NCBI RefSeq assembly: GCF_003086775.1
Contig: NZ_CP026001.1
Location: 3,126,407 to 3,190,406, forward strand
DNA length: 64,000 bases
Origin: Stenotrophomonas sp. ZAC14D1_NAIMI4_1
GTDB taxonomy: Bacteria > Pseudomonadota > Gammaproteobacteria > Xanthomonadales > Xanthomonadaceae
Reading direction: 5' to 3'
Shown here: positions 18,628 through 23,028 of the stretch, piece after piece
How positions within the stretch are numbered: the first letter of the stretch is position 1
Layout: each line of letters begins with the position of its first letter
Translations under genes and position numbers: made by a program
Notes under the pieces: generated by a model
Told to the model about the DNA's origin: nothing
What the model saw: the letters and a program-made list of their open reading frames with translations, nothing else
Databases searched by the model: none

Positions 18628-20529
18628 TTACGCGCCCTCGGCCTGGAGCCGCTCGATGAAGGCCTGCAGGCTCATGCTGCCCAGGTCTTCGCCAGAACGC
18701 GTACGCACCGCCACAGCTCCATTTTCCTTCTCGCGGTCACCGATGACCAGCAGGTAAGGCACGCGCTGCAACGTATGCTCGCGGATTTTATAGCCGATCT
18801 TCTCGTTACGCAAATCCGAGCTGACGCGGAAGCCTTGCTCCGCAAGGGTCTTGGTCACGCTGGAGACGTATTCAGCCTGAGCGTCGGTGATGTTGGCCAC
18901 CACCACCTGGGTCGGCGCCAGCCAGGCCGGGAACTGGCCGGCGTGGTGCTCGATCAGGATGCCGAGGAAGCGCTCCATCGAACCGACGATGGCCCGGTGC
19001 AGCATGACCGGATGCTTCTTCTGGCTGTTTTCGTCCACGTACTCGGCGCCCAGGCGGCCCGGCATCATGAAGTCGACCTGCATGGTGCCCAGCTGCCAGG
19101 TACGGCCGATGGCGTCCTTCAGGTGGTACTCGATCTTCGGGCCGTAGAAGGCGCCCTCGCCCGGCAGCTCCTGCCATTCCACGCCACAGCTGGACAGCGC
19201 CGAGCGCAGCGCGCCTTCGGCCTTGTCCCAGGTCGCGTCGTCACCCAGGCGCGATTCCGGGCGCAGGGCGATCTTCACCTGGATCTCGTCGAAGCCGAAG
19301 TGCTGGTAAACCGCCAGCGCCTGCTGGTGGAACGCGGTCACTTCCGCCTCGACCTGGTCTTCGGTGCAGAACACATGGCCATCGTCCTGGGTGAAGCCAC
19401 GCACGCGCAGGATGCCGTGCAGCGCGCCGGACGGCTCGTTGCGGTGGCAGGCACCAAACTCGCCGTAGCGGATCGGCAGGTCGCGGTAGCTGTGCAGGCC
19501 CTGGTTGAACACCTGCACGTGGCCCGGGCAGTTCATCGGCTTGAGCGCGTAGGTACGCTTCTCGGACTCGGTGAAGAACATCGCGTCCTGGTAGTTGTCC
19601 CAGTGGCCCGATTTCTGCCACAGCGACACGTCCAGGATCTGCGGGCAGCGCACTTCGCCGTAGCCGGTGCTGCGGTAGACCTTGCGCATGTACTGCTCGA
19701 CCACCTGCCACAGCGCCCAGCCCTTGGGGTGCCAGAACACCAGGCCCGGGGCTTCTTCCTGCAGGTGGAACAGGTCCTGCTGCTTGCCGATGCGGCGGTG
19801 GTCGCGCATTTCGGCTTCCTCGATGCGCTTGATGTACGCATCGAGCTGCTTCTTGTCGGCCCACGCGGTGCCGTAGATGCGCTGCAGCTGTTCGTTCTGC
19901 GCATCGCCACGCCAGTACGCGCCGGAAATGCGGGTCAGCTTGAAGGCCTTCAGGAAGCGCGTGTTCGGCACGTGCGGGCCGCGGCACATGTCCACGTATT
20001 CCTGGTGGTAGTACATGCCCATCGCCTGGATGTCGTCGGACATGTCCTCGATCAGGCGCAGCTTGTAGTCCTCGCCACGGGCCTTGAAGATCTCGAACAC
20101 TTCAGCGCGCGGCGTCACCTTCTTGATGACGTCGTAATCCTGGGCGATCAGCTCGCCCATGCGCTTCTCGATGGCGGCCATGTCTTCCGGCGTGAACGGA
20201 CGCTCGGAATAGATGTCGTAGTAGAAGCCTTCGGCGATGACCGGACCGATCACCATCTTCACGTCGGGGTACAGCTGCTTGACGGCGTGGCCGACCAGGT
20301 GGGCGCAGGAGTGGCGGATGATTTCCACGCCCTCCTCGTCCTTGGCGGTGATGATGCGCAGGCGGGCATCGTGGTCGATGACGTCGCTGGCATCGACCAG
20401 CACGCCATCGACCGAACCGGCGATGGTGGCCTTGGCCAGGCCGGCGCCGATCGACTGGGCGACGTCCATGACGCTGACGGGGTTTTCGAATTCGCGGCGG
20501 CTGCCGTCGGGAAGGGTGATATTGATCAT
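18628..20529 (-). CDS. thrS: Threonine-tRNA ligase
   Basis: 633 aa from ATG 20527-20529 ([10 protein letters not shown]). TGS domain at 1-60, second additional (editing) domain at about 65-225 with [16 protein letters not shown], class II catalytic core at about 240-535 with Zn ligands in [16 protein letters not shown] and VMLHRAIVG, and the anticodon-binding domain at the C-terminus. Charges tRNA-Thr. Its 5' leader holds a complete candidate attenuator. Ends 49-64 bp before infC, as in E. coli. Confidence 0.98.
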
Positions 20530-20595
20530 CGCAATGGCTTCGTGCGGGGCCCGCTCGAGCGGGCTGGAAAGCGTTCCGGGCGGTGCCCGGGCAAT

Positions 20596-20618
20596 AAAAA
20601 AGCGCCGCGAGGGCGCCT
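20596..20618 (-). terminator. Leader terminator upstream of thrS
   Basis: On the minus strand AGGCGCC pairs with GGCGCTT (7 bp, one G-U) around loop CTCGC, followed by TTTTATT. It lies between the Thr-rich leader peptide and the thrS start, where transcription would stop before the gene. Confidence 0.8.
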
Positions 20619-20631
20619 GGAACACAGGGCC
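20612..20631 (-). promoter_or_regulatory. Candidate antiterminator hairpin, thrS leader
   Basis: GGC-CCTG pairs with CAGG-(C)-GCC around loop TGTTC. Its 3' arm covers the 5' arm of the terminator (20612-20618), so the two structures exclude each other, as in classical amino-acid attenuators. Confidence 0.55.
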
Positions 20632-20643
20632 TTCGGGGGCAGG

Positions 20644-20670
20644 TCAGCGGTGGGCGGTGGTAGTGCTCAT
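20644..20670 (-). CDS. Threonine-rich leader peptide upstream of thrS
   Basis: ATG AGC ACT ACC ACC GCC CAC CGC TGA encodes MSTTTAHR: three consecutive Thr codons, 26 bp ahead of the terminator stem. A ribosome stalling there under low charged tRNA-Thr would favour the antiterminator and thrS expression. There is no strong Shine-Dalgarno (only GAGCG upstream). Assigned from arrangement, not from a known family. Confidence 0.6.
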   Translation of the reverse strand: MSTTTAHR

Positions 20671-20730
20671 GTCGCACGCTCGGCCGGCGCTGGGCGCGGG
20701 CCACCTTGTTCCAGTCAGGGTTCTGCGTCG

Positions 20731-20759
20731 ATCTTAAACCAGCGCGCGGCAAAGCCCAA
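20731..20759 (-). promoter_or_regulatory. Candidate thrS promoter
   Basis: TTGGGC (20754-20759) and TAAGAT (20731-20736) on the minus strand, separated by 17 bp. It would start transcription near 20724, about 55 bp ahead of the leader peptide. Confidence 0.55.
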
Positions 20760-20815
20760 GCCAGCCGGGCCAATGCCGTGCCAGGGCGGCTGAATGGCGG
20801 CCGCTGGCGGGGCCA

Positions 20816-20838
20816 GATGGCAATGATTACCATACGCA
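20816..20838 (+). promoter_or_regulatory. Candidate Fur box upstream of TonB receptor
   Basis: AATGATTACCAT forms a near-palindrome (ATGRTWAYCAT type) resembling the core of the Fur consensus, about 55 bp upstream of the receptor ATG. Supports iron regulation, but the flanks match poorly. Confidence 0.4.
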
Positions 20839-20889
20839 GGCGTTTCTCACTTGCGTGTGGCGCGCCCCTTCCCGGCCCTGGATCCGCCC

Positions 20890-23028
20890 ATGTCTCCGCA
20901 GTCGTTGCCGGTTCGTGCCGGCCTGTTCCGTGCCCCGCTGTCCACCCTGGCGCTTGCGCTGGCCGCAGCCCTGTCCGGCGCGCTTCCCACCCTGGCCCAG
21001 GCCGATGAAGCGCGCACGCTGGACACCGTGCAGGTGACCGCCCCCATCGCCACCGAAAGCGGCAGCGCGACCAAGACCGACACCCCGCTGCGCGAGATTC
21101 CGCAGTCGATCTCGGTCATCACCGACCGGCAGATGCGCGACCGTGGCATCCACGGCGTGGAGGAAGCGGTGTGGTACACCGCTGGCGCCCAGGGCGGCCA
21201 GTACGGCGAGGACACCCGCAGCGACTGGCTGCTGGTGCGCGGCTTCAAGCCGGCCCGTTACCTTGACGGCCTGGCCACGGTGGAAGGCACCTGGACCGGC
21301 GAATCGCGCATCGAGCCGTATGGCCTGGAGCGCATCGACGTGCTGAAGGGCCCGGCCTCGGTCAACTACGGCGCGATGCCGCCGGGCGGCCTGGTCAATT
21401 TCGTCAGCAAGCGCCCGAGCGCCAACCCGCTGCAGGAGGTGGAACTGCAGGTCGGCAACTACGGCCTGAAGCAGGCCGCCTTCGACATCGGCGGCGCGCT
21501 CAACGACAGCGGCAGCGTCCTGTACCGCCTGGTCGGCCTGGCCCGCAACAGCGACAACGTCATCGACCAGGTCCATGACGACCGCTACTACCTCGCCCCG
21601 TCCATCACCTGGACCCCGGACGAGGCCAATTCGCTGACCGTGCTGGCCCGCTACCAGAAGAACGACACGGTCGAGACGGGCGGCTTCCTGCCCTACCAGG
21701 GCACGGTGGTGCCCGGTGTCAACGGCCGCTACATCTCCCGCCACTTCTTCAGCGGCGAGCCGGGGGTGAACGACTACACCAAGGAAGCCGCGTCGCTGGG
21801 CTATGAGTTCCGCCACGATTTCGGCGACGGCACCGTGTTCAACCAGAACGTGCGCTACAGCTGGGCCGAAGTGGATGCCAGCCACGGCAGTCTGGGCCTG
21901 TTCGGCCTGGCCGCGCCGGACAGCACCGAGCTGGTGCGCTACTACTACCCGCGCATGGACACCTCCGAGAGCGTGGCCATCGACAACAACCTGACGTTCC
22001 GCTTCCACAGCGGCCGCGTCGAGCACACCGTGCTGGCCGGGCTGGACTACCGCCGCGCGCGTGACGACTACGCCTCGGCGTTCCTGTTCGGCGCGCCCGG
22101 CATCGATGCCTACAACCCGGTGTACGGCGCGCCGGTGCAGGTGCCCGACTACACCTCGCGGCAGGTGCAGACGCAGGGCACGCTGGGCCTGTACCTGCAG
22201 GACCAGATCCGCATCGACCGCTGGCTGGTGACCCTGGCCGGCCGCCAGGACTGGGTCGGCACCGATACCGAACAGCGCATCGGCGGCACCGGCACCGCCC
22301 ACCAGAGCGATGACCAGTTCTCCGGCCGGGTCGGCGTGAACTACCTGTTCGACAACGGCGTCAGCCCCTACGTCAGCTGGTCGCAGTCGTTCCAGACCAC
22401 CATCGGCACCGATTTCGAAGGCCGCGCCTTCGTGCCGACCACCGGCGAGCAGTTCGAGGCGGGCGTGAAGTACCAGCCCGAAGGTGGCCGCCTGCTGCTG
22501 ACCGCCGCTGCCTACCAGATCGAACAGGACAACACGCTCACCGTCGACCCGCAGCACACCCTGTTCTCGATCCAGCAGGGCCAGACCCGCGTGCGCGGCG
22601 CCGAGCTGGAAGGCCGCTGGAACATCGGCCAGGGCCTGAGCGTGTATGGCAGCTACACCCGCCTGGACGCCAAGGTCCGCCGCAGCACCGATGCCGCCTC
22701 GCTGGGCAAGCGGGTGGCGCTGGTGCCGAAGGAGAGCGCCTCGCTCGGCGCCGACTACACCTTCACCGCCGGCGCGCTGAGCGGCTTCGGCTTCGGTGCA
22801 GGCGTGCGCTACAACGGTGGCATCTACGGCGACATCTACAACGACTGGTACACCCCGTCGTTCACCCTGATCGACGCCAGCGTGCACTACGACCGTGGCC
22901 CGTGGCGCCTGCAGGTGAACGCCGCCAACGCGGCCGACAAGAAGTACGTGTCGGCCTGCAACAGCGCGACGTGGTGCTACTACGGCTACCCGCGCACCGT
23001 CACCGCCAGCCTGCGTTACCAGTGGTGA
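20890..23028 (+). CDS. TonB-dependent siderophore receptor
   Basis: 712 aa from ATG 20890; a TTG at 20851 is less likely because the signal peptide (hydrophobic 19-36, cleavage after AQA37) fits the shorter form. TonB box LDTVQVT at 44-50, plug domain about 60-170 (LREIPQSISVITDRQM, LVRGFKPARYLDGL, RIDVLKGPASVNYGAMPPGGLVNFVSKRP), then a 22-strand barrel ending in aromatic YQW. It matches FhuA/FpvA-type ferric-siderophore receptors. Followed by three membrane proteins probably acting in the same uptake route. Confidence 0.93.
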   Translation: MSPQSLPVRAGLFRAPLSTLALALAAALSGALPTLAQADEARTLDTVQVTAPIATESGSATKTDTPLREIPQSISVITDRQMRDRGIHGVEEAVWYTAGAQGGQYGEDTRSDWLLVRGFKPARYLDGLATVEGTWTGESRIEPYGLERIDVLKGPASVNYGAMPPGGLVNFVSKRPSANPLQEVELQVGNYGLKQAAFDIGGALNDSGSVLYRLVGLARNSDNVIDQVHDDRYYLAPSITWTPDEANSLTVLARYQKNDTVETGGFLPYQGTVVPGVNGRYISRHFFSGEPGVNDYTKEAASLGYEFRHDFGDGTVFNQNVRYSWAEVDASHGSLGLFGLAAPDSTELVRYYYPRMDTSESVAIDNNLTFRFHSGRVEHTVLAGLDYRRARDDYASAFLFGAPGIDAYNPVYGAPVQVPDYTSRQVQTQGTLGLYLQDQIRIDRWLVTLAGRQDWVGTDTEQRIGGTGTAHQSDDQFSGRVGVNYLFDNGVSPYVSWSQSFQTTIGTDFEGRAFVPTTGEQFEAGVKYQPEGGRLLLTAAAYQIEQDNTLTVDPQHTLFSIQQGQTRVRGAELEGRWNIGQGLSVYGSYTRLDAKVRRSTDAASLGKRVALVPKESASLGADYTFTAGALSGFGFGAGVRYNGGIYGDIYNDWYTPSFTLIDASVHYDRGPWRLQVNAANAADKKYVSACNSATWCYYGYPRTVTASLRYQW

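Follow-up and report, generated by a model that had tools for sequence, protein, structure and literature searches.

A putative threonine-sensing transcription attenuator ahead of thrS in Stenotrophomonas and in much of the order Xanthomonadales

The threonyl-tRNA synthetase gene thrS of Stenotrophomonas sp. ZAC14D1_NAIMI4_1 appears, with a probability that we put at about 0.88 from sequence analysis, to be governed by ribosome-mediated transcription attenuation that senses charged tRNA-Thr. Attenuators of this kind are known from the leaders of amino-acid operons (trpL, hisL, thrL and pheL); the control of thrS itself relies on a protein-bound operator in E. coli and on a T-box in Firmicutes. 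According to our proposal, an ample supply of charged tRNA-Thr would let the leading ribosome reach the stop codon of a short leader ORF, where its front edge, at about nt 37 from the ATG, would cover the start of an antiterminator, allowing a terminator to form and transcription to stop before thrS. Under a shortage of charged tRNA-Thr, the ribosome would wait at codons 3-5, the antiterminator would form first and the polymerase would enter thrS. The original prediction had placed thrS under ribosome-stalling attenuation, and this is supported by the conservation of Thr codons and terminator among relatives, by a covarying antiterminator and by a switch between the two structures in folding calculations. 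If true, much of the order, including Xanthomonas and Stenotrophomonas relatives, ties ThrRS to charged tRNA-Thr.

The window, that is, the whole stretch of 64,000 nucleotides that was analysed (contig NZ_CP026001.1, positions 3,126,407 to 3,190,406), carries the thrS control region on its minus strand, where it was read from about 20760 to 20530. The named loci nearest to it are those of Stenotrophomonas, S. maltophilia being 97% identical in ThrS. In 5' to 3' order, thrS is preceded by a weak promoter, AAGGTG, a hairpin designated P2, GAGCGTGCGAC, the leader ORF, the antiterminator and the terminator. When the window sequence was read again, every part listed in the original prediction was found where it had been placed; what had escaped notice was the Shine-Dalgarno sequence of the leader, its separation from the start codon by a hairpin, and the occurrence of the arrangement across the order. 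The features are the following:

20731..20759, minus strand: candidate promoter read in the sequence, TTGGGC (20759-20754), 17 nt, TAAGAT (20736-20731)
20702..20707, minus strand: Shine-Dalgarno-like AAGGTG of the leader ORF (alignment A1)
20682..20702, minus strand: hairpin P2 between Shine-Dalgarno and start codon, with 4 bp, a C.C mismatch, 3 bp and a small loop (covariation)
20668..20677, minus strand: near-invariant GTGYGACATG, positions -7 to +3 in 174 leaders
20644..20670, minus strand: leader ORF MSTTTAHR*, from ATG at 20670 to TGA at 20644 (sequence; 174 distinct relatives)
20656-20664, minus strand: Thr codons ACT ACC ACC, codons 3-5 of the leader ORF (read in the sequence)
20608..20635, minus strand: antiterminator, 5' strand 20635-20625 and 3' strand 20619-20608 (folding, and covariation in 102 leaders)
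20596..20618, minus strand: intrinsic terminator AGGCGCC-CTCGC-GGCGCTT plus T tail, stem 20618-20600 (terminator search and covariation)
18628..20529, minus strand: thrS, threonyl-tRNA synthetase (MINITLPDG...), with its start at 20529 taken from the conserved N-terminus of relatives; the ORF itself spans 18628-20625

The window sequence alone is no proof of attenuation, since short ORFs with runs of three Arg, Ala, Ser or Lys residues also precede a few others of its 36 terminators (both strands). The argument is therefore carried by relatives. A total of 227 thrS upstream regions were collected, 149 from genomes of the family (Xanthomonadaceae; 149 of its 198 genomes) and 78 from named genomes; the named loci numbered 80, several of them outside the order, and L061 and L085 were left out for having a match that starts inside the gene. 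Leaders resembling that of the window (type A) were picked by a 15-base pattern around the start block, with at most 4 mismatches and an obligatory ATG, which gave 197 leaders, 174 of them distinct. The match in L084 is false and does not belong to the 197, and L018, L231, L237 and L245 are not included in the counts on 174 leaders.

The eight-codon peptide MSTTTAHR with three successive Thr codons, present in the window as the original prediction had described it, proved to be strongly conserved. The type A ORF has 8 codons in 142/174 distinct leaders and ends with TGA in 164/174, and Thr, often found at codon 5 too, occupies codon 3 in 172/174 and codon 4 in 158/174. Regulatory Thr codons are nevertheless few, which counts against attenuation: two or three are present in 157 of the 174, one in 15 and none in 1. 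Thr constitutes 415 of the 1194 residues after the start. Codon 3 is moreover ACT (168/174) and not the common ACC. This codon accounts for just 3/174 Thr codons in eight genes of the window and 58/1700 in thrS genes; in the other leader types described below it makes up 9/23 Thr codons (Shine-Dalgarno-only), 11/26 (leaderless) and 1/38 (type B). Attenuation theory predicts codon choice from the charging of isoacceptors (PMC1183508, from the text available), and this may bear on the rare ACT at codon 3.

At the level of RNA structure, the terminator at 20618-20596 is the sole terminator-like site in 20500-20900, where 0.4 are expected in shuffled sequence. A terminator follows the leader stop codon, at a distance of about 26 nt, in 137/174 distinct leaders versus 1/174 when each was subjected to one composition-preserving shuffle, and a looser search for compact terminators raises the number to 147/174. 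Covariation was analysed in two alignments thinned for similarity, A1 and A2, of 71 and 102 leaders. A2 and the set used for folding were limited to leaders whose compact terminator lies 16-34 nt past the stop, and the terminator is consequently present there by selection; its stem pairs in 93.6% of cells of these 102 leaders and displays 42 double changes versus 10.2 in shuffled alignments (reached in 0/500), the number of pairs with double changes being equalled in 34/500 shuffles.

The alternative hairpin predicted at 20631-20612 is indeed there and can be extended to 20635-20608, where it reaches -13.3 kcal/mol with a z of -2.08 in the window. Its helix joins CCGAGG, just past the stop codon, to CCTCG in the 5' arm and loop of the terminator, so the predicted sharing of this arm between both structures also stands. 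This shared-arm helix pairs in 80.1% of cells and shows 22 double-change cells versus 10.5 in shuffles (1/500), with compensatory examples such as CCAGG/CCTGG in L045 and L139 and CAAGG/CCTTG in L026 and L210. Its covariation is moderate, given that 54/500 shuffles match it in how many pairs show double changes and that the helix slid by 1 or 2 columns yields 19 and 18 double-change cells versus 22, while pairing falls to 61% and 33% versus 80%.

Conservation of the terminator held for most relatives, but not for all, since the 110 nt after the stop contain no T tract in 24/174 leaders. Such leaders lend some colour to the view that the terminator merely ends a small RNA or stray transcript, thrS being read mainly from a promoter downstream and the ORF having no regulatory role. 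We consider this very unlikely, because distance, Thr specificity and the covarying antiterminator are all conserved. Besides, the long ORF upstream of the leader (20851-23028, 725 aa) lies on the opposite strand and points away from it, so that there is no transcript of an upstream gene to be ended. Ten of the 24 leaders belong to a single Xanthomonas-type group that retains the Thr ORF (X. hortorum L036 and L037, X. phaseoli L041, and L012, L014, L016, L017, L019, L021 and L025); in L020, a relative within this group, the leader ORF extends to 16 codons. X. maliensis (L038) and X. massiliensis (L111) retain the terminator. The missing T tract implies that the mechanism has been lost or changed in this group, where either relaxed selection or a different mechanism would be at work.

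The proposed attenuation was also explored by modelling the ribosome as a switch. Folding was restricted to the RNA that is free ahead of the ribosome, whose front edge lies, and was set, some 15 nt past the first base of the P-site codon. A toeprint at +16 is quoted in the available text of PMC3858243. With the A site placed on codon 3, 4 or 5, P(terminator), the probability that the terminator forms, averages 0.29, 0.29 and 0.22, respectively, over 136 type A leaders, and it averages 0.82 with the ribosome at the stop codon; when spacers are shuffled, it is 0.67 at codon 3 and 0.76 at the stop. Between these two positions P(terminator) goes up by more than 0.1 in 106/136 leaders and down in 2, and the increase takes place as the first free nt moves from 31 to 37, which corresponds to the end of a ribosome on the stop codon. 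All these values come from equilibrium folding, with kinetics outside their scope. The window behaves similarly, with 0.0004, 0.0002 and 0.00007 at codons 3, 4 and 5, 0.41 at the stop and 0.07 with no ribosome; in the model, the direction of its switch is right and its off state is incomplete. Among the 34 leaders of other types, the mean changes from 0.71 to 0.93, with an increase above 0.1 in 10 and a decrease in 1, and 11% of shuffled controls rise. In silico, it is the position of the ribosome that selects the structure, an effect that is weaker in the other leader types.

These features place the thrS leader close to trpL, hisL, thrL and pheL, with which it shares a short leader peptide carrying regulatory codons, a terminator, a mutually exclusive antiterminator and, in the folding model, termination favoured by a ribosome at the stop codon (for the trp and his scheme, see the available part of PMC1183508). 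It differs from them in its target, an aminoacyl-tRNA synthetase, in the conserved hairpin that splits the leader ribosome-binding site, and in that no 1:2 pause hairpin was identified in it. The 1:2 hairpin, which guards an untranslated leader against read-through, is typical of trp and his, but we do not treat it as defining for a ribosome-mediated attenuator. A further difference is the predicted antitermination of RNA that no ribosome occupies. When folding starts at the ATG and no ribosome is present, the mean P(terminator) of the 136 leaders is 0.30; because ribosome-free RNA thus mostly antiterminates in the model, repression would require a ribosome to be loaded on every transcript. 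This need may be the reason for the strong conservation of the leader start region, whose near-invariant bases around the start codon are not accounted for by classical attenuation. An Rfam scan gave no match to the leader at gathering scores, be it T-box, thr operon leader or any other family; three matches lie far below them (E 1.3-5), none credible. A tRNA-like operator was also sought by eye, in the leader and next to the thrS start, and was set aside, no anticodon-like loop being seen in P2.

The start region begins with the candidate promoter. Both hexamers and their spacing are found at the predicted site, but a strict sigma-70 scan returns 0 promoters. Among 171 leaders, 89 have a TANNNT box beginning 34-27 nt ahead of the leader Shine-Dalgarno (11.5 per position at that distance versus 0.9 elsewhere), preceded 16-19 nt before by TTG in 44 of the 89. 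Downstream, the leader ORF seems to have its Shine-Dalgarno in the AGGTG ahead of P2: in alignment A1 it is replaced by AGGAG in L055 and L172 and by AGGAA in L089 and L106, and in L219 and L245, where P2 is gone, the distance from AGGTG to the ATG is 4-5 nt. A pairing between AGGTGG and the ACTACC codons was considered and rejected, as leaders with a different codon 4 (L072, L081, L094) retain GGTG. P2 itself owes its support to covariation, because folding of the single sequence gives none: in the window its MFE is -15 kcal/mol with a z of 0.13, no stabler than shuffled sequence. In the alignment, double changes occur in 8/8 of its pair columns and in 38 cells versus 11.8 after shuffling (reached in 0/500 shuffles), its pairs form in 84.9% of cells versus 25-45% for slid controls, and the column of the C.C mismatch that it carries is unpaired in 56/70; the loop is often GNRA. 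Between P2 and the ORF stands GTGYGACATG, near-invariant in 174 leaders and with only C or T at position -4, which extends further as GUGYGACAUG-NNN-ACU. Part of this invariance reflects selection, since the sample was picked using that block. The conserved block CGAGYGTGYGACATG has one exact match in its own genome and 19 matches at up to 2 mismatches versus 39 for the reversed pattern; it is therefore not a common leader there.

Conservation at the RNA level that goes beyond codons, manifested in GUGYGACAUG and in the choice of ACU rather than ACC at codon 3 (168/174), would also suit a scenario in which ThrRS binds the leader as it does the E. coli operator, P2 and GUGYGACAUG-NNN-ACU being a protein site that blocks translation of the leader or of thrS and the Thr codons being incidental. 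A ribosome-binding site split by a hairpin is common to both control regions, here that of the leader and in E. coli that of thrS, where ThrRS binds the hairpin (available text of PMC3858243; the autoregulation is mentioned in the accessible part of PMC2965389). By eye, GACATG...CACT is also shared by the operator-like regions that precede thrS in L084 and L090 (Litchfieldella, Acinetobacter). This scenario is nevertheless most improbable. In E. coli, ThrRS binds the hairpin that precedes the thrS start codon; here there is a separate leader ORF, which in the window begins 141 nt upstream of the thrS start, and the terminator lies between the two; P2 loops are, by eye, GNRA-like or otherwise short and not anticodon-like GGU/CGU; and P2 is missing in other families that retain Thr codons and terminator.

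Within ribosome-mediated attenuation, the near-invariance of the start region suggests a step that couples polymerase and ribosome. P2 and the invariant UGYG might form an RNA polymerase checkpoint, a pause after emergence of the Shine-Dalgarno and before the AUG that loads a ribosome on every transcript; we regard this as a guess, and as rather unlikely to be right. If it were true, P2 would replace the classical 1:2 pause hairpin and the attenuator would be on by default, being turned off only once a ribosome reaches the leader stop codon. The consensus pause has Y-1 G+1, G-10 and a hairpin 11-12 nt upstream (PMC12288461, text available in part). The restriction of position -4 to C or T between invariant G's resembles its Y-1 G+1, but P2 ends 8 nt upstream and not at the published distance, and G-10 is unmatched.

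The distribution of the leader was followed through the order. In the family, 144/149 genomes have a type A leader with Thr in its first four codons; of the remaining five, L219 and L245 carry a Thr leader of another type, L171 has a leader without Thr, and no leader was seen in L193 and L229. A covariance model of the 5' block, run with strict filters that may lose weak matches, found it in 104/250 genomes of the order, once in each except for one weak partial second match in G147. Outside the family, 49/50 matches are on the strand of thrS and 82-234 nt ahead of it, the odd one being a weak match in G219. Across the class (Gammaproteobacteria), 5/369 genomes matched, all five from the order.

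Loci of the order without type A (44, of which 36 have a terminator) nonetheless have, in 32 cases, a short ORF containing two or more Thr codons ahead of the terminator, the runner-up residue in the same test being Arg with 8. Outside the order, none of 28 class loci (out of 51 class genomes with a thrS match) has a Thr ORF before a terminator, and only 9/28 have a terminator at all. In 34 non-type-A leaders, chosen for having a Thr ORF, Thr makes up 87/258 residues after the start. These leaders begin in different ways. Type B leaders, with another hairpin and ATG ACG CGN (peptides MTR...), occur in family f2, most of f3 and two f12 loci; Shine-Dalgarno-only leaders in f11, f6 and two loci of f1; and f4, f7, f8 and f10 include loci with apparently leaderless Thr leaders. 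In 8/9 of these, the distance from the end of a TANNNT box to the start is 6-7 nt; in L317, a locus with a second ATG one codon upstream, it is 10 nt. No Thr leader was found in one f5 locus, five f9 loci, three of four f8 loci and one f12 locus (L295). Across the order, Thr codons and terminator mostly stay and the mode of translation start is swapped, which provides a natural experiment on attenuator evolution.

The idea of thrS attenuation is not new, because a thrL leader (MKRVRPFLETTPGFVPAR) has already been predicted before thrS in a reannotation of Streptomyces lividans, without a U-rich stretch according to the available text (PMC8079986). Both systems have a Thr-containing leader peptide ahead of thrS; as described there, the S. 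lividans leader differs in its 18 codons, leaderless start, two Thr and single hairpin. Leaderless ORFs of attenuators or candidate attenuators have also been described in Actinobacteria (PMC4633059 and PMC8079986, each from the part available). The Thr leaders examined in f4, f7, f8 and f10 resemble them in that the ORF starts a few nt past the -10 box; unlike them, the leader of the window is not leaderless. A literature search of titles and abstracts recognised no thrS attenuator in Xanthomonadales, with an earlier prediction being possible in the most relevant comparative study, Lopatovskaya 2010 (Mol Biol 44:128). To the extent covered by our searches, three things are new: the wide occurrence in this order, leader start modules that have been exchanged, and a conserved start region split by a hairpin.

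Genes behind thrS might possibly be tied to charged tRNA-Thr as well. As a separate observation, infC has an apparent ATC start at 18564-18562 on the minus strand, after GGGAGA; a non-ATG start is known for IF3 autoregulation. In addition, the thrS leader is closely preceded by a tRNA-Val(GAC) gene in 17/18 scanned loci of other genera or families, most of which were picked by eye for it (L284, L285, L286, L288, L289, L291, L292, L299-L302, L313, L314, L219, L231, L237 and L245); it is absent from L282, and the window has no tRNA gene at this place either. This neighbourhood is probably an old synteny. Finally, a repeated palindrome around CCGGCCATCCATGGCCGG, possibly a REP-like element, was seen by eye between the terminator and the thrS start, or nearby, in L044, L046, L053, L068 and L096.
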